A DNA stretch of 64,000 nt from Phyllobacterium zundukense. GTDB lineage: Bacteria > Pseudomonadota > Alphaproteobacteria > Rhizobiales > Rhizobiaceae. The notes under the pieces are model-generated. The model saw nothing but the letters and a program-made list of their open reading frames with translations, had not been told where the DNA came from and made no database searches. Below are positions 54,159 to 64,000 of the stretch, piece by piece. Position numbers and translations under genes: made by a program. Position 1 is the first letter of the stretch. Each line of letters opens with the position of its first letter. Location of the stretch: the NCBI RefSeq assembly GCF_025452195.1, contig NZ_CP104972.1, forward strand, positions 682,001 through 746,000, given 5' to 3'.

Positions 54159-54518
54159 ATGAAAAGATCAGCAACTATCTTGGCGATAGCAGCTTTGGGC
54201 GCAATGATGGCCGCCGGCTCGGTAACTGAATCGATGGCGCGCGGCGGTGACCATGATGGCGGTGGCCGTAGCGGGGACCACGGTGGTATCGGCCGTGGTT
54301 TGGGCGGCGGCGATCATAGTTTCGGCGGCAGGGACCATGGCTCCCGAGAGGGCGGGATCTTCGGAACCGGTGGCGTCTTCGGTGCCCGCGCGGTTGCGGT
54401 GAGCCATGATCGCTTTGGCGACCGCAGGGATCACCTTAGGGATTTCAACCGTGACGATAATTACGGATCCTGCGAATATCCGCACTTTGGCAATTCTCCT
54501 ACCAGATACTGTGAGTAG
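54159..54518 (+). CDS. Exported glycine/histidine-rich small protein
   Basis: 119 residues. The start MKRSATILAIAALGAMMAAG is a signal peptide; the mature part is rich in Gly, Asp, His and Arg (ARGGDHDGGGRSGDHGG, GGGDHSFGGRDHGSREGG) and ends NSPTRYCE with two cysteines. The His/Asp-rich repeats might bind metal, but this is a guess. AGGAG seven bases upstream sits in the hairpin arm. It lies between the two IS6 relics, together with the next gene. Confidence 0.6.
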   Translation: MKRSATILAIAALGAMMAAGSVTESMARGGDHDGGGRSGDHGGIGRGLGGGDHSFGGRDHGSREGGIFGTGGVFGARAVAVSHDRFGDRRDHLRDFNRDDNYGSCEYPHFGNSPTRYCE

Positions 54519-56864: not shown

Positions 56865-58028
56865 TCATCGCCTGCCCTGAATACCTTGCGCTGCGGCGAG
56901 TGCGAGGCAAAGCAGGCCGAGGGTCAGCGCAAATCCCTGGATACCGACTAGTTCCATGACCGCGCCGGTAACCGGCGGACCAGCGATGCCGCCGACACCC
57001 CATACCATGGCGAAAGCCGCATTGCCGGCCATAAGCATCGAGCCGGAAAAGCGTTCCCCTAGTTCGATCAGAGCCATGGTGTAAATACCGAACGACGTGG
57101 CGCCCCAAACGAACACGATCGGCCAGGCAAACACCGAATTGAACGACAGCGGTAACAGCAGACAGCCAAGCGCCGTCGTCAGCGCGCACAACATCAGCGC
57201 CCGCTTCGAGCCCTGCCTTTCGGCCAACATACCGAGGGGAACCTGCAGCGCGACATTGCCGGCGACAAAGACAGCGAGCAGCGTTGATATCCTGGCTTCC
57301 GGGCTGCCGTAACCTTGACCATAGGTCGACATCAGCGCCAGCGTTACTTGCTCGAAAGCGGCAGCGGTAAACACCGCGAACAGTAGCAGCGACGCCCGGG
57401 GTACGAAACGTCTGACGGAAGCCTGCTGCGCATGGCCATTGTCGAACTTGGGCAGTTTCGGCAGCACCCTGAGCAGACAAAGTCCGCACAGCACGAAAGC
57501 CGTGATGCCGACCAGGAAAGGCGGCCAGCCGTGCGTTCCAACGACGGTCAGGGTGAGCGGCCCCAACGCAAAGCCGGCGGAAATCACTGACGTATAGACG
57601 CCCATTATGCGGCCGCGCTTTGCCGGTGGCGTCAGCGCGATCATCCAAGTTTCGCTGATCACGTAGAGCGGATTGACCGCAAACCCGAGCAGGAAGCGGA
57701 GCGGAAACCACAAGAGGGCGTTCTGCTGCCAGCCGATAAGTGCAAGCAGCAGAGCTGCCAGGCCGGCGCACGACAGCGCAGTTCGCCCTGCCCCGAAGCG
57801 TCGTGACAGCCATGGGATGAGCGGCGCCGACAGGATAAAACCAAGCGGCGTCATCGCCGCCGACAAGCCGATCGTGCCGGGCGACATGCCTTGCCGCTGC
57901 AGGATAAAACTGAGCAAAGGATAGCTCAGCCCTTGCGCGATAGCGAAGACAGAAACCGTCGCTATAATGCCTGCTAGCGCCGGCCACGGCTGTGCGTTCA
58001 ATTGAATCTGCAACTCGTCATTTGTCAT
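56865..58028 (-). CDS. MFS transporter (YcaD/UMF-like)
   Basis: About 387 residues with 12 predicted membrane helices. The inter-helix A-loop is around LSRRFGAGRTALSC and the second-half one near LAERQGSKRALMLC. KPFRIGLS-like elements are missing, but PLLSFILQRQGMSPGTIGLS and RFLLGFAVNPLYVISETWM resemble the YcaD/CynX-like exporters. ATG 58026-58028 follows GGAGC. The substrate is unknown. It lies alone between IS relics. Confidence 0.88.
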   Translation of the reverse strand: MTNDELQIQLNAQPWPALAGIIATVSVFAIAQGLSYPLLSFILQRQGMSPGTIGLSAAMTPLGFILSAPLIPWLSRRFGAGRTALSCAGLAALLLALIGWQQNALLWFPLRFLLGFAVNPLYVISETWMIALTPPAKRGRIMGVYTSVISAGFALGPLTLTVVGTHGWPPFLVGITAFVLCGLCLLRVLPKLPKFDNGHAQQASVRRFVPRASLLLFAVFTAAAFEQVTLALMSTYGQGYGSPEARISTLLAVFVAGNVALQVPLGMLAERQGSKRALMLCALTTALGCLLLPLSFNSVFAWPIVFVWGATSFGIYTMALIELGERFSGSMLMAGNAAFAMVWGVGGIAGPPVTGAVMELVGIQGFALTLGLLCLALAAAQGIQGRR

Positions 58029-58276
58029 GGTTTGCTCCAAAACGCTCAGCCAGAGACGCGCTCTGCTCGGCTTTAAGACTCTTCTCACGACCATTGAGCT
58101 TCCGACGAACCGACAGAATTGGCGAAGTGCGGGTTGTCACTCTGGCGAACATCCTCACCTGTTCCTTTGAATCCACTACCCCAACTTCCTTGAGTCGATC
58201 CAATCCTACAATCGCGATGATGTAGCGGCCATCAGTTTCTAAGCGGATCCAGTTCCAGAGGAGACGGCAAGCGAAT

Positions 58277-58979
58277 TTCGAAGTGTAGGGATGGATTCTA
58301 TTTCGAAGTGCGACACGTTAATAATATCAACGTGTTGGCTTTGGAGAAGAATGCATGCCTCGCCTCTACGTGCAGCTCGATCTGGATGAATGTCGCAAAC
58401 TGTATCGATATTGAGAAAAGAAACTGCCCGTCGATGAGATAGCCAGACTGCTCGGCAGGCATCGTTCGACGATTTATCGCGAACTGAACGCAACCATTTC
58501 CACGACCCGCAATTCAAACAATATAGCGGCTATTACCCGCTGACGGCCAACGACCTGTGTTTGCGTCGCCGTCATGTCCGGCGCAAGCTTGTCCGTTATC
58601 CAGGTTTGCGCGCTATGGTGATCGATCGTCTGCGCAACTGGTCACCCGAACAGATCGCCGGACGATTGAAGAGCGATGGCATCAATCCTTTTCGGATCTG
58701 CACGGAAACCATCTATCGGTTCGCTTATAGTCAGCATGGCGGCGAGCTGATGCTGTACCGGTATTTGCCGGAAGGCCGCCGGGCACGCCGCCGTGGCAGC
58801 CGTAAGCCGCGCGGCTCATATCCCCGTGAACTGCAGCATTCGCAAGCGCCCCCGATGCGATCAAGGAACGCAGCAATTCCGGCCATTGAGAGTGCGATTT
58901 GATGGTGTTCCGAAAGGCATACGGTCAGAGCAATCTCACCTCGCTGGTCGAACGCAAAAGCGTCGAGGATTGAATGACA
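58277..58979 (+). pseudogene. Decayed IS30-family transposase and left end
   Basis: ATG 58355 opens MPRLYVQLDLDECRKLYRY, then an in-frame TGA, then EKKLPVDEIARLLGRHRSTI and YRELN, the IS30 helix-turn-helix. Near 58490 a base is lost; the next frame continues HFHDPQFKQYSGYYPLTAND, RLRNWSPEQIAGRLKSDGI and later DLMVFRKAYGQSNLTSLVER, from the start of the DDE core, before a stop. The acidic triad is not complete. Upstream ACACGTT (58313-58319) pairs with AACGTGT (58329-58335), a feature of IS30 left ends. The right end is missing. Confidence 0.8.
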
Positions 58980-59082
58980 AGCGATAAGAAGGTCCATAGA
59001 ATACTTTCGGTTCGCTGATAACGGCGAATGAAAGGACACAAGGATCATTTCCCTTGATGGATCAACAGGCCGCGCTCGAAAA

Positions 59083-59994
59083 ATGATGGACATGGCTAAG
59101 TCGCACTATTTCGATATCGTCTCGCCCGAGTTTCACGCAAACCGTTTTCCGACGCTCGATCGCATGCGAGCCGAAGGTCCCGTGGTTCGCATACAGTTGC
59201 CGATAGTTGGCCAGACCTGGCTGGCCGTCACACATGGCAGCTGCGCAATGTTGATGAAGGATTTGCGCGCGACCCTGACTCAGGCGCGAATAGTAAGGGT
59301 CCTGCCGAGGACGATCAGCCTTTTGGCGCTCAATATGATGGGTCATGATGATCCTCAGCACCGTCGCACCTGCGTAGCCTCGTTGAGCCAGCGTTCCAGC
59401 GCAAGACGATAGATGCCTTGAAACCGATAATCGAAGACATTGCCGATCGGCTTCTCGACAGGCTGAAGGGGAGAACGGAGGCCGAACTCATGCTTGAATT
59501 TTGTCGGGATCTGCCACTTTCAGTCATCTGTGCGATGCTTGGCCTGCCGGAAGAAGATCATGACCGATCAAGAACTGGGCGGGCTAAAGGACACCGCCAA
59601 TATTGGCGCGGTTATCCGCGCTATTCCCGGTAATCCGTGTCCTTCGCTACCTTCGCCGAGTTTCGCGACCGCAGGGAGGAGCACTATCCGTTGCAAGGCT
59701 GCGTGACGCTGAAACGGTCGGACCACCTCTCAGTGAAGATGAATTGGTGTCGATGATCTTCCTCCTCTTCGGCGCTGGACAGGAAACCACACCCCATCTG
59801 ATCGCCGGAGGACTCTTCGCGTTGCTGTCGCATGAGGATCAGCGACGTCAGCGGCAAAACGATCCAGGCCTGATGCCGACCTGCGTCGAAGAGTGCCTGC
59901 GCTACGTCTCACCAGTGCAGATGACCAAGCCACGCTTTTGCAACCCAAGATTTAGTCTGGCAGGGACGGCAATTCCGCCGGGACCGACGCAGTG
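59083..59994 (+). pseudogene. Cytochrome P450 pseudogene
   Basis: Three frames in turn give parts of one P450: the N-terminal SHYFDIVSPEFHANRFPTLD and HDDPQHRR; then from ~59400 FQRKTIDALKPIIEDIADRL and LPLSVICAMLGLPEEDHDR; then the I helix LLFGAGQETTPHLIAGG and the ExxR segment EECLRYVSPVQ. The haem-binding Cys loop is absent: the frame stops after AGTAIPPGPTQ. So at least three frameshifts and a C-terminal truncation. With intact sequence it would be a class I bacterial P450. Confidence 0.85.
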
Positions 59995-60559
59995 ATGCGA
60001 CGTATGCCGGCGTGGTCGGAAACGGCGTGCTCGTCCTGCAACGCAAAGGCGGTTGTCCGAACGGTGTTGCAACTCCGAATAATTTCGTTTCAGTCTCGCC
60101 GCGGGAAATCAACTTCTCCATAATCTTTGTCCTTCCCCCAGGATTAATTTTCGCCCTTGACTGGCCGATTTCATCAACATGGCTCTGGATACTGAGCCGA
60201 TCCAGCGAGGCAAGCGGCAGGTTGATAAAGATCTTCAGCCGCCGGCCGAGTTCCGCCATTGCCCGGGAAGCGATTTTTGTTCTGAGTCTGGTTCGAGTCC
60301 GATCAAACCTCCCGCCCCTGTGCGAATTCGCATTTGGAGCATCGCCCAGTATTTGATCTAGCGAACTAAGAATTGCGCGCTCCACATGCCTCGGAGCAAG
60401 TGCGCCGCTCGCTTACCATGAACCAATGTCTAACGTTCTGATACGAGGGTATAATATAAAACGCCTACAATTTTCCCCAAAACTATAATGATTGCGGCGG
60501 CGATCCGTTGCTGTTGTGGCAACGCCCGCTTATGGCGGGAAATGTTGATTGGAACGCAA
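59995..60559. other. Stretch without an assignable gene
   Basis: Frames are open on both strands between about 59909 and 60385 (on the minus strand, LGRRLKIFINLPLASLDRLS), but with no signal for either strand and no recognised family. Nothing clear is seen in 60390-60559. Confidence 0.35.
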
Positions 60560-60787
60560 ATGCCTAGTAGATCAATGAATGGAGAAACTCCCCAGGCGGC
60601 CAACCAAACGCGTAGCCTCCAGGTCACCATAGACGGCCTCAAAGCCAACCTCGACTGTGCCGTGGAGGCAGCGTTTCTTCATGGCGCGACCGAATGGGTT
60701 CGTCTTAATCACCCAACACATTACGAGCGGCTGCTCATGAGATTTGACGACAGCGCCTTGCTGGGCGCGCGCAGGTATCTCCACTGA
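60560..60787 (+). CDS. Small protein of unknown function preceding the ADP-ribosyltransferase-like gene
   Basis: 75 residues from ATG 60560 (GGAA upstream; ATG 60542 is possible). It reads SLQVTIDGLKANLDCAVEAA then FLHGATEWVRLNHPTHYERL, a mixed helical soluble protein. Nine bases separate its stop from the next ATG, and the TGA sits against the GAGG of that gene, so the two are translationally coupled. Its place is that of an antitoxin or immunity gene, but no known antitoxin family is recognised. Confidence 0.5.
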   Translation: MPSRSMNGETPQAANQTRSLQVTIDGLKANLDCAVEAAFLHGATEWVRLNHPTHYERLLMRFDDSALLGARRYLH

Positions 60788-60796
60788 GGTCGTACG

Positions 60797-61264
60797 ATGT
60801 CCACATTCACTCTGATCCTGTGCCACGGCACCGATGCCGATTTCAGAGGCTTCGACTTTAGCGAGTGCAACGACAGCGGTGCATTCGGCCGCGGATTCTA
60901 TTTCTCCAACGATATGGAGCTTGAGCGGCAATATTCGAATGGTCTCGATCCGGTCGTCGCCAAGGTGACACTGCGGAACCCTTATGTTCTTGATAAACGT
61001 CTTTCGTACGATGAGTGGATCGCAGCCACGAGAATTTTTCGGCCGATCGAGCGTGCACGCGAGAGATTGATAGGATTGGGGTATGACGGGGTTCTGCTCC
61101 TGCAAGACAGCTACGTCGAAGTCGTCGCTTTCTACCCGAGACAGATTCAAAGCTTCGACCGCAGCCCCGATCTCGCAATTCCGGATACGCGAAAACGGAA
61201 CACCCCGCCCTTGTTGAAGCTCAGATCCTTCTTGGGGCGATTTCGAACATATCCCTCAAGCTGA
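60797..61264 (+). CDS. ADP-ribosyltransferase-fold protein (ART, polyvalent-protein type)
   Basis: 155 residues. ILCHGTDADFRGFDFSECND then GAFGRGFYFSND resembles the ADP-ribosyltransferase core: His10-Gly11-Thr12 for NAD binding and the GxGxYFS strand with Tyr35. GYDGVLLLQ and VEVVAFYPRQIQS are the later core strands, with Glu or Gln near the end. This matches the H-Y-[E/Q] class found in phage/plasmid polyvalent proteins and toxins. GAGG lies seven bases before ATG. The C-terminal 35 residues are basic (KRNTPPLLKLRSFLGRF). A toxin-like role is inferred from fold and neighbours. Confidence 0.65.
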   Translation: MSTFTLILCHGTDADFRGFDFSECNDSGAFGRGFYFSNDMELERQYSNGLDPVVAKVTLRNPYVLDKRLSYDEWIAATRIFRPIERARERLIGLGYDGVLLLQDSYVEVVAFYPRQIQSFDRSPDLAIPDTRKRNTPPLLKLRSFLGRFRTYPSS

Positions 61265-61317
61265 ACATTAGTTGGTGTTCATGAACTCGCTGAAGAATGA
61301 AAGAACGGAGAACGAGT

Positions 61318-61989
61318 ATGCCTCTTGGAATCGCCAAAAAATTGCTGCTGGGTCTTGCGCTGGGAATAACCTCTCTGATGTCGTTGTCGCTAGAAAGCAA
61401 TGCACAAAGCACGATGATGAAGTCAAACAACCAGCCTAGCGCCGCCCAAACATCCAGTCACGTCAATGTACGCGGGACAATCGAAAGCATCGCCGGAAAG
61501 ACGTTGGTTATCAAAACGCTGGAAGGCGGCGAGACAGCAATCACCCTTGCAGACGATTTGACTGTCAACACCTTGACCAAGGCGTCGATAGACAACATCA
61601 AACAAGGTGATTTTGTCGGCATTGCCAATGTTCCGACAAGCGGAGGCACCAGCAGTGCGCTCGAAGTCGTCATTTTCCCGGCAGCCCTCAAGGGTACTGG
61701 TGAGGGCAACTATGCATGGGATCTGAAGCCGAACAGCAGCATGACCAATGCGACCGTTGCAAATGCCGTCAAGGGCGTAGACGGTCACACCGTCACAGTC
61801 ACCTATCGCGGCGGTCAAAAGAAGATCGCGATCCCGGACAATACGCCCATCGTGGCATTGGCTGTCGGGAAAGCAGATGATCTAAAGGCTGGTGCTGCAG
61901 TGTTTGCCCCCTCGGAATTCGGAGCCGATAGCAAGTTCACCTCACATCGTGTCGTCGTCGGCACTGATGGCGTGGTCCCACCAATGTAA
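61318..61989 (+). CDS. Exported protein with DUF5666-like repeats
   Basis: 223 residues from ATG 61318 (GGAG seven bases before). A signal peptide (KKLLLGLALGITSLMSLSLE) is followed by two beta-rich modules: VNVRGTIESIAGKTLVIKTL with FVGIANV, and KGVDGHTVTVTYRGGQKKIA with VALAVG. GTIESI...LVIKT, then a statement about exposure (IKQGDFVGI), is the form of DUF5666/OB-like extracytoplasmic domains. Function unknown. It is transcribed alone after the ART gene. Confidence 0.65.
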   Translation: MPLGIAKKLLLGLALGITSLMSLSLESNAQSTMMKSNNQPSAAQTSSHVNVRGTIESIAGKTLVIKTLEGGETAITLADDLTVNTLTKASIDNIKQGDFVGIANVPTSGGTSSALEVVIFPAALKGTGEGNYAWDLKPNSSMTNATVANAVKGVDGHTVTVTYRGGQKKIAIPDNTPIVALAVGKADDLKAGAAVFAPSEFGADSKFTSHRVVVGTDGVVPPM

Positions 61990-63060
61990 CGGCGGTCTGC
62001 CAGCAAAGTTCACCGTAAATGATCGAGCGCCAAATGATGGCCGAGCTCTCGCACTATCTCGGCCATCTATGGCGATTTGGGATTGTTCTTTCCCTCGACA
62101 ACCATATTGCAGAAAAGCTTGTCGAACAGACATGCATCTGTGCGCTTGAGAGCGATCCATGGCCGATATGACGAGAACAGCGACACCTAAAAGAGACAGG
62201 ACCGAAAACACACTCACGGGTCCGAGCGTCAACTCATTCCATATAAGATTAAGCCTATCTATCCGTCGATAACCCCCGCGTTGCGCCCTGCAATAACAGC
62301 GGCGGGTAAATGCGCCGTCAATAGCGCCTTGATATTATCCAACAAAAGATGCTCGGTGGAGGGACACCACCACCGCTTCCGAGCATGTTTCTATAAGCAG
62401 AATTTCCTTTTTCTATTCGTCAAAATCTTGGATGTTATTGGTTCTAAGGGCCTTTGCCCGGGCGCATGTCAGCATTCCGCTGAGCTTGGGTCTTTGGCTT
62501 GTCGACCAAAAATCGCATTAGCTGCCCTGGAATGCCTTGCTTATCTGTTTTGGTCGAGGGAAACACTCGCCGAGATTCTTGAGTGTGACCCGATTTTGGT
62601 GAAGGAGTGAGCTGAAGGGCGAGAGCCGGTTCCGCCTCAACTTGCCGCTTGGCTAGAGCCATTGGCGCTGGCGCATGCCACGGCGGGAATCCTGACCGCC
62701 TATGGGTTAAGAAAGCCGCGTGGGTGCGACTCAATCGCGCTTCCTGCTGGCGGTTGAAGGTGTGCGCCAGACAAGCCTTGCAGTCGCAAACCATGCCGGA
62801 TAAAAGTTATTCCCAACGCCCAGCACAAGATTGACGTGTCGCAGCTGGCTGCAATGATTACCCAGCTTGAAAGCGTCGTTCCGGGTGCAGCAAAGACCCG
62901 GGGAGATTTCCGCAATATCCGCATACAATGCAAGAGCGTGTCGCCTGTCCCGCCAATCTCGCCGGAGCGGACCCCGCCCCCGATTCTGTCCATAATGGCT
63001 ATTTAAGCTAATTGGTCGCAACAGCCAAAGCGAACTTTGGTTATATCCCTTTCGACTAAC
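61990..63060. other. Gene-poor stretch before hipBA
   Basis: About 1 kb without a well-supported gene. A minus-strand frame (61942-62232) starting near TTG has a hydrophobic start (VFSVLSLLGVAVLVISAM) and could be a small membrane protein, but its end overlaps the previous gene. Another plus-strand frame (about 62810-63005, AQHKIDVSQLAAMITQLESV) has no start site. I would not call either. Confidence 0.4.
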
Positions 63061-63061
63061 C

Positions 63062-63164
63062 ATTATACGTAAAAGCGTATAATCTTGTTTTAGGCGCCTT
63101 CGCGTATATCTCAGATTTAAACGCAAACACGTATATTGACGAGTTATACGGCCTCGCGTATATT
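63062..63164. promoter_or_regulatory. Four hipBA operators at exact 27-bp spacing
   Basis: Each operator has the plan [TTAnnCG]-N6-[CGTATAt]. O1: ATTATACG 63062-63069, CGTATAAT 63076-63083 (perfect). O2: TTTAGGCG 63089-63096, CGTATATC 63103-63110. O3: TTTAAACG 63116-63123, CGTATATT 63130-63137. O4: GTTATACG 63143-63150, CGTATATT 63157-63164. Centres lie at 63072.5, 63099.5, 63126.5 and 63153.5. In E. coli, HipB also binds four dyads upstream of hipBA; the same plan is likely here with a different sequence. Confidence 0.85.
63136..63164 (+). promoter_or_regulatory. hipBA promoter
   Basis: TTGACG (63136-63141), 17 bases, TATATT (63159-63164), a good sigma-70-type promoter. Operator O4 fills the spacer and the -10 hexamer, so HipB binding would block polymerase. 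The start of transcription would be near 63171, close to the GGAGG of hipB. Confidence 0.7.
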
Positions 63165-63181
63165 GATGATGGAGGCTCGTC

Positions 63182-63436
63182 ATGACCGATTCCATTGCCC
63201 GCACTGAAAAACAGCTGGGCGCTATTATCCGCCGCGCCCGTAAACAATCCGGCCTGACGCAGGGGGCTTTAGGCGATCTGATCCATCTGCGCCAGGGGAC
63301 GATCTCACGTCTTGAAGCCGGACAGCCTGCCGTCCAGTTGCGCACGCTGATGGAGGCGCTCTCCGCCCTCAAGCTGGAACTGGTAATCCGTCCCCGGACG
63401 CAGGCCAGCGCTTCCGACATCGAGGATATATTCTGA
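63182..63436 (+). CDS. hipB: HipB-like antitoxin, helix-turn-helix regulator
   Basis: 84 residues: an XRE/Cro-type helix-turn-helix with SGLTQGALGDLIHLRQGTISRL and a short C-terminal extension (LSALKLELVIRPRTQ). Such proteins neutralise HipA and repress their own operon through dyads upstream. GGAGG lies six bases before the ATG. It overlaps the hipA start (TGATG). Its operators are the four dyads described. Confidence 0.9.
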   Translation: MTDSIARTEKQLGAIIRRARKQSGLTQGALGDLIHLRQGTISRLEAGQPAVQLRTLMEALSALKLELVIRPRTQASASDIEDIF

Positions 63437-64000
63437 TGGCACGGCGCAAGGCGCATGTGCCTCTCAATGTTTATTTGAATGGCCGCGTTGTCGGCGTGCT
63501 GCGCCGGGAAACCTCCGGCGCTATCGACTTCACCTACGCGCGCGACTGGCTGGATTGGAGCGAGACCTTCCCGGTGTCACTCTCTCTGCCGCTGCGCGAA
63601 GACCGCTATATCGGCGCGCGCGTCACTAATGTTTTCGACAATCTGCTGCCGGACAACGAACCGATCCGCAAACGTGTCGCAGAACGCGTGGGCGCAGAGG
63701 GCATTGATCCTTACAGTCTGCTGGCAGCGCTCGGCCATGACTGCGTCGGGGCTTTGCAATTCCTGCCCGAAGGCAGCGAGCCCGGCCCTGCAGGAAGCGT
63801 TGAAGGGAAACCGATCAGCGATGAAGAAATCGCAGCGCTTCTTGCCAATCTGGCAACCGCTCCGCTCGGGATGGGCGATGATGCGGACTTTCGGATTTCG
63901 ATTGCCGGTGCGCAGGAAAAGACGGCCTTGCTGTTCAGGATGGCCAGTGGTTCAAGCCTTCCGGCACGGCAGCGACCACTCATATCCTCAAGCCACAGAT
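63436..64000 (+). pseudogene. hipA: HipA-like serine/threonine kinase toxin, N-terminal part, frameshifted and cut by the window end
   Basis: The frame starts at 63436, overlapping the hipB stop, and reads VYLNGRVVGVLRRETSGAID, FPVSLSLPLREDRYIG and NVFDNLLPDNEPIRKRVAER (the HipA N-subdomain 1) and RISIAGAQEKTALL. At 63931-63937 (CTGTTCA) the frame shifts: adding one T gives FQDGQWFKPSGTAATTHILK, the expected ATP-binding start. As read, the toxin is truncated or out of frame after ~166 codons. The end of the gene lies outside the window. Confidence 0.8.

Follow-up and report, generated by a model that had tools for sequence, protein, structure and literature searches.

A putative toxin-antitoxin-like pair of a phage-related small protein and a stand-alone ADP-ribosyltransferase in Phyllobacterium

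Toxin-antitoxin systems whose toxin is an ADP-ribosyltransferase (ART) include DarTG, in which a DarT domain is accompanied by a macrodomain partner, and MbcTA and other RES-Xre systems, in which a RES domain is paired with an Xre-like protein. To our knowledge, little functional work has been devoted to stand-alone relatives of the ARTs of polyvalent proteins. We analysed 64,000 nucleotides of Phyllobacterium zundukense, a plant-associated soil bacterium (contig NZ_CP104972.1, positions 682,001 to 746,000; this whole stretch is called the window), which sit on a 990-kb contig of a 6.4-Mb genome in five contigs, and in which a gene for a short protein, here named small, directly precedes an ART gene. 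The family of this ART, ART-PolyVal (PF18760), is described in passages of PMC5512222 and PMC3482391 as the Tox-ART-HYD2 clade of polyvalent proteins and polymorphic toxins, and DUF3990 (PF13151), to which the protein is more weakly similar, appears in a passage of PMC7955679 as a family of the Pfam ART clan. The reading that we tentatively prefer, though we rate it at slightly under an even chance, is a phage-derived, toxin-antitoxin-like operon in which small would restrain the ART and a conserved upstream element would be the candidate operator.

The gene pair and its ART domain

The pair consists of two genes on the same strand:

60560..60787, + strand: small gene, 75 residues, predicted all-helical; phage-shared motif at about residues 24-58
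60797..61264, + strand: ART gene, 155 residues; stand-alone ART-PolyVal ADP-ribosyltransferase, triad H10-Y35-E108

A two-gene module at 60560..61264 had been proposed by an earlier sequence-only reading, and its place, the sizes of both proteins and the 9-base gap from stop to start were all correct; an alternative start of the small open reading frame (ORF) is possible at 60575. The small gene comes first and the gap is short, which is the layout of type II toxin-antitoxin operons. Protein searches found 16 relatives of the ART and 19 of small. The pairwise ratio of nonsynonymous to synonymous substitution (dN/dS) ranged over 0.07-0.29 among ART genes where dS was unsaturated. Most comparisons of small genes gave 0.09-0.51, two between close relatives being higher (0.66 and 1.81); pairs with saturated dS yield no ratio. 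Since relatives exist and dN/dS is low for most pairs, neither frame is a chance ORF.

The ART scored 40.6 bits against PF18760 (E 5.3e-10), above the curated cut-off of 31.2. Its N-terminal third matched DUF3990 weakly (E 2.4e-4), the score of 21.3 falling short of the curated 32.2, and no other family was listed by Pfam at E<=1; a relative from Mesorhizobium (P0053) carries the name DUF3990 domain-containing. Among 14 diverse relatives, H10 and E108 of the H-Y-E triad were present in all and Y35 in 13, the remaining one (P0067) having F. Structure prediction, which the sequence-only reading had proposed as a check, was run for both proteins and returned an all-helical model for small and, for the ART, a PARP-like fold consistent with the ART fold. 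The ART domain suggested from the sequence was thus borne out by the family score, the triad and the predicted fold together. Searched against solved structures, the ART sequence gave no credible match (best E 0.84), and a profile search gave none at E<=1. It also matched two PHROGs of unknown function and, over only about 43 residues, two PADLOC entries (E 0.0015 and 0.021); these were set aside. Among database proteins, P0036 is an ART fused to a region 4 domain of an extracytoplasmic function (ECF) sigma factor, perhaps via deletion of the genes between.

On plasmid pRlX5 of Rhizobium leguminosarum, an ART relative with 52% identity begins at, or adjoining, the stop of an upstream ORF, which is readable as a protein of 132 residues with an isoelectric point of 4.05, belongs to no family and is unrelated to small. 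As read from this single case in an unannotated record, the bicistronic layout appears to recur with an unrelated acidic upstream gene.

Phage relatives of the small protein

The statement that small matches no known antitoxin family held in the library scans: no family was found at E<=1 in Pfam, NCBIfam and PADLOC, and the single PHROG match had E 0.4. An alignment of 20 members, the window's own included, gave one Pfam match, at E 0.19 and for one member. The best match among solved structures (E 0.018) was a designed helical repeat and is not credible.

About 35 residues of small form a motif common to 11 phage or viral records, namely 4 phage records and 7 IMG/VR contigs. In the phages it is 49-57% identical, occurring in Rhizobium phage RHph_I4 (E 2e-8), Brevundimonas phages Kikimora (1e-5) and Gurke (3e-5), and RHph_I1_18 (1e-3); the search threshold was E<=1, and the four rows counted span E 2e-8 to 1e-3. 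The relatives in IMG/VR reach 71% identity over 35 residues. Eight aligned sequences, small and phage copies together, have in common the pattern L-x3-L-x2-AV-x2-A-x3-GA-x2-WV-x2-N-x-P-x4-RL, with 13 invariant positions including GA, WV, N-x-P and RL. In the phage copies, the motif stands mostly near the C-terminus or internally, in proteins of about 59-265 residues which are mostly longer than small. The flanks fetched for the phage motif genes yielded no ART, and none of 10 phage motif proteins scanned reached a Pfam cut-off. A search of 347 genomes of the order found the motif at E<=0.001 in the P. zundukense genome only; the small-bearing members of the genus gave no row, presumably because they lay outside the draw.

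Several candidate matches were discarded. The name Ead/Ea22 was not used for the motif, its match being below cut-off (E 0.24, in one of seven proteins), and the H13 hit was not counted, as it falls on a different stretch of the L051 protein, largely ahead of the motif. A match to small in G114 (E 1.2e-4, in a 419-residue frame) and a fifth row from the P. zundukense genome (E 1.76) were dropped as chance. In Rhizobium phage RHph_I1_18, a 59-residue small-like ORF lies two genes ahead of a NADAR-domain gene (L078:2441-3263), for which no relative was found at E<=0.01 in the other phage motif loci compared.

Linkage in the genus, upstream element and apparent exchange of the ART

The ART is present in 5 of 20 genomes of the genus, and the same five were recovered among 149 relatives. 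Relatives that bear a name in the genome scan are Phyllobacterium sp. KW56, P. trifolii, Ca. P. onerii and P. bourgognense. Searches for distant ARTs, in which at most 10 first-look candidates were scored per listed genome so that misses are possible, were positive in 1 of 397 genomes of the order (P. zundukense itself) and in 3 of 394 of the family (P. zundukense, G018 and a piece of a 5494-residue frame in G632). A search of 146 genomes of the genus of G223, run with no positive control, gave none.

At all seven loci with a full-length ART, small lies directly upstream, and no ART without small was found among them. The gap is longer at G002:C19, where it extends over 53 bases after the small stop. 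Small itself occupies 18 loci in six genomes of the genus: seven with an intact ART, one with a 20-residue ART remnant (G008:C5), one with the ART deleted (G006:C6), five without ART and four degenerate or partial. Two arrangements recur. Unit 1 has the order small, ART, a 230-residue protein and an ECF-type sigma factor (the window, L054, L055, L058 and L063); unit 2 has small, ART and a 90-residue protein (L062 and a second copy in P. zundukense, 8.3 kb downstream). They occur as blocks of about 1.8 kb and 1.3 kb, respectively, in partly different flanks, the block in the window being:

60388..62158, + strand: 1.77-kb block (blastn) of small, ART, the 230-residue gene and a sigma piece; 95% identical to the block in G018, which has a different immediate left flank

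No terminal repeats were seen by eye at the unit edges, and the blocks are therefore not called transposable elements. In three genomes, unit 1 is followed by a second, partial copy of small that contains an in-frame TGA (L054 6908-7060, L058 6986-7138 and L063 7441-7593, each locus oriented to put small on the + strand).

Upstream of the pair lies a further conserved feature:

60440..60456, + strand: conserved 17-bp element GATACGAGGGTATAATA, whose inverted repeat (ATAC-N4-GTAT) overlaps a TATAAT box; proposed promoter/operator

The pattern GATACGWGNGTATAATA, derived from the two copies in the P. zundukense genome and searched with at most one mismatch, has two matches in that genome and eight across 19 genus genomes, all of them 97-104 bp ahead of a unit-1 or unit-2 small gene. 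There was no match elsewhere in the 19 genomes, and the reversed-pattern control gave 0. Because the eight matches comprise the two source sites and relatives of these, it is the absence of matches elsewhere that carries weight. Both unit-2 loci that lack the ART retain the element, which was not found at L055 or at solo small genes. A 42-base upstream block keeps 31 positions between the two P. zundukense units, whose small genes are near saturation at synonymous sites (proportion differing 0.67). The ATAC-N4-GTAT core by itself is not uncommon, with 3 occurrences in the window versus 0.5 in shuffles. Taken with its position, the pattern makes the element a candidate locus-specific promoter or operator of the pair.

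Small persists at loci where the ART has been lost. L056 and L059 have the same ART deletion with the same replacing sequence, small being intact in both and the ART being cut at L059; because the two loci share both deletion and replacing sequence, the deletion was probably inherited. Protein change in this pair of small genes falls mostly on the branch of G006, a genome without a detected ART (0.18 versus 0 in the tree), which hints at relaxed constraint on small in that lineage.

A number of observations weigh against a toxin-antitoxin relation. The confidence of the ART model is modest (predicted local distance difference test score, pLDDT, 67). The model of small (pLDDT 80) gave no Foldseek match at E<=0.001, and library scans of small and the alignment members found no DNA-binding or antitoxin family. 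A sigma-70 consensus scan of 60300-62300 gave no promoter, with 1.3 expected in shuffles, and the -35 box of the TATAAT candidate is unclear. The small genes of L056 and L059 differ at about 13 of 174 nonsynonymous and 12 of 51 synonymous sites (p 0.004, site counts rounded), and a clade of 67-residue small proteins lacks the ART at 4 of 4 loci. At L055 (G002:C19), the ART is 94% identical to that of the window and small only 65%, so the partners are not locked together. Synonymous differences between these two loci amount to 16/108 in the ART, 24.5/51 in small and 65.5/170 in the 230-residue gene (Fisher p 2e-5 and 1e-5), and windowed identity runs from 0.6 at the small end through an indel to more than 0.9 at the ART start and about 0.8 near the ART end. 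In the tree of small, L055 groups with a solo gene (support 96/89), and in the ART tree with the other ART of G002 (92/82, modest). As the simplest reading of these comparisons, it is strongly suggested that the ART gene at L055 was exchanged alone. Both the solo small genes and the apparently exchanged ART speak against small as a strict one-to-one antitoxin. Because small is under purifying selection at ART-less loci and one ART gene seems to have been exchanged independently of its neighbour, small is not only an immunity partner. The toxin-immunity pair of the sequence-only reading stands in part: the ART fold and triad, the operon layout, the restriction of the ART to loci with small, the promoter/operator candidate and the neighbouring toxin-antitoxin genes speak for it, and an exclusive immunity role of small has to be given up.

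The main rival explanation, which we consider rather unlikely, is that small is a resident gene with its own job, such as a captured phage adaptor or regulator, and that the ART is an effector which it helps or targets, with no toxin-antitoxin relation between them. This would account for constraint on solo small genes (including two in G006, besides the four loci of the 67-residue clade), for an ART apparently exchanged alone and for a phage motif carried by proteins of varied length with no ART in the fetched flanks. Against it stand the absence of any ART found without small (7 of 7 loci) and the antitoxin-first order with tight coupling; moreover, solo antitoxins can be retained to neutralise ART copies elsewhere.

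In the toxin-antitoxin-like operon that we prefer, the ART, an H-Y-E enzyme, would use NAD+ to modify an intracellular target, as family, fold and triad suggest, and would be toxic. Small, translated first, would probably bind and restrain it, and would probably help to control its own promoter via the inverted-repeat element about 100 bp upstream, in a form of autoregulation. Small would also have a further, ART-independent role, so that the ART would best be seen as exchangeable cargo which survives only behind the small gene. A variant to which we give little credence would make small a decoy: a captured phage motif holding the ART inactive, until a phage protein with the same helical motif displaces small, frees the ART and triggers defence. 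Solo copies of small would then be decoys or dampers. Should small inhibit the ART, the motif, which phages of Rhizobium and Brevundimonas carry, would become a candidate module for inhibiting or triggering it, and the pair is a short, testable system tying an ART to a recurrent phage motif unnamed in the family libraries scanned.

Neighbouring genes and described systems

Downstream of the pair, the window holds the remaining parts of unit 1:

61297..61989, + strand: 230-residue protein whose start resembles a signal peptide by eye; Pfam gave no family at cut-off
62034..62159, + strand: N-terminal piece of an ECF-type sigma factor (tblastn)

The 230-residue gene, for which no scan gave the label DUF5666, follows the ART at the five unit-1 loci, intact in four and cut short in one (L054). 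The sigma gene is nearly whole only at L055, whose copy contains Sigma70_r4_2. The gene order of unit 1, with the sigma factor or its pieces, could also fit a stress-response operon under the adjoining sigma factor, in which the ART would modify a protein of its own cell as regulation and not as a toxin. This we hold to be improbable: in the window the sigma gene is truncated, and its matches at L054, L058 and L063 are split or partial, yet both small and the ART are intact at these loci; and unit 2 has a different downstream gene.

A hipBA locus about 2 kb away had been pointed out, and its position was as described (hipB 63182-63436, hipA from 63436). The locus looks broken, because hipA is split into two ORFs, an N-terminal one with Couple_hipA and a C-terminal one with HipA_C (window 63436-64000; L034:10437-11758). 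A ParDE-type toxin-antitoxin pair, with ParD barely at cut-off, lies about 8 kb past the window end, near the second small-ART copy (L034:19043-19590). Two ORFs upstream (59083-59995) look like cytochrome P450 pieces; the second is above the P450 cut-off and the first matched nothing. The surroundings had been called full of mobile-element relics, and this holds only in part, the transposase-like piece at 58561 having just a sub-threshold HTH_32 match. As to a defence island, nothing was found beyond the neighbouring toxin-antitoxin genes (hipBA and ParDE) and the two weak PADLOC matches of the ART. A glycine-rich, small, exported-looking protein recurs near these loci (window 54159-54518, L052, L054, L058 and L063), and Rfam gave no match over 58000-64000.

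The broken hipA and the P450 piece nearby, short ART proteins of 87-103 residues (P0015, P0016, P0055 and P0058) and the cut ART at L059 could all be expected of a decaying phage or mobile-element relic with no present function. We regard this as very improbable, given intact frames, a kept triad, dN/dS well under 1 in most pairs and a promoter block conserved between units with near-saturated synonymous sites.

The small family, the phage motif, the element and the pairing were found neither in the family libraries scanned nor, as judged by titles, abstract starts or passages, in the literature searched; the publications found on Phyllobacterium and toxin-antitoxin systems include none on the pair by title or abstract start. 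The pair resembles DarTG and MbcTA/RES-Xre in combining an ART-fold, toxin-like enzyme with a second gene in a two-gene unit, and the MbcTA complex 6fkg appeared as the 49th match row (E 0.015). Unlike DarTG, Pfam at E<=1 gives no DarT for the ART and nothing for its partner; unlike RES-Xre and MbcTA, the pair has neither a RES nor an Xre-like match at that threshold; and unlike known type II systems, small falls in no known antitoxin family in the library scans. The weak match to DUF3990 is a likeness that stays below the curated cut-off. The likeness to ART-PolyVal lies in a domain score above cut-off and in a triad that runs from H through Y to an acidic residue; the last of these is E here and D in a passage of a 2017 paper on the clade. 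The architecture differs, in that the ART of the window stands alone as a protein of 155 residues, encoded behind a small gene on a bacterial replicon, and is no part of a large injected protein. It is an ART-PolyVal member by domain, not by architecture.
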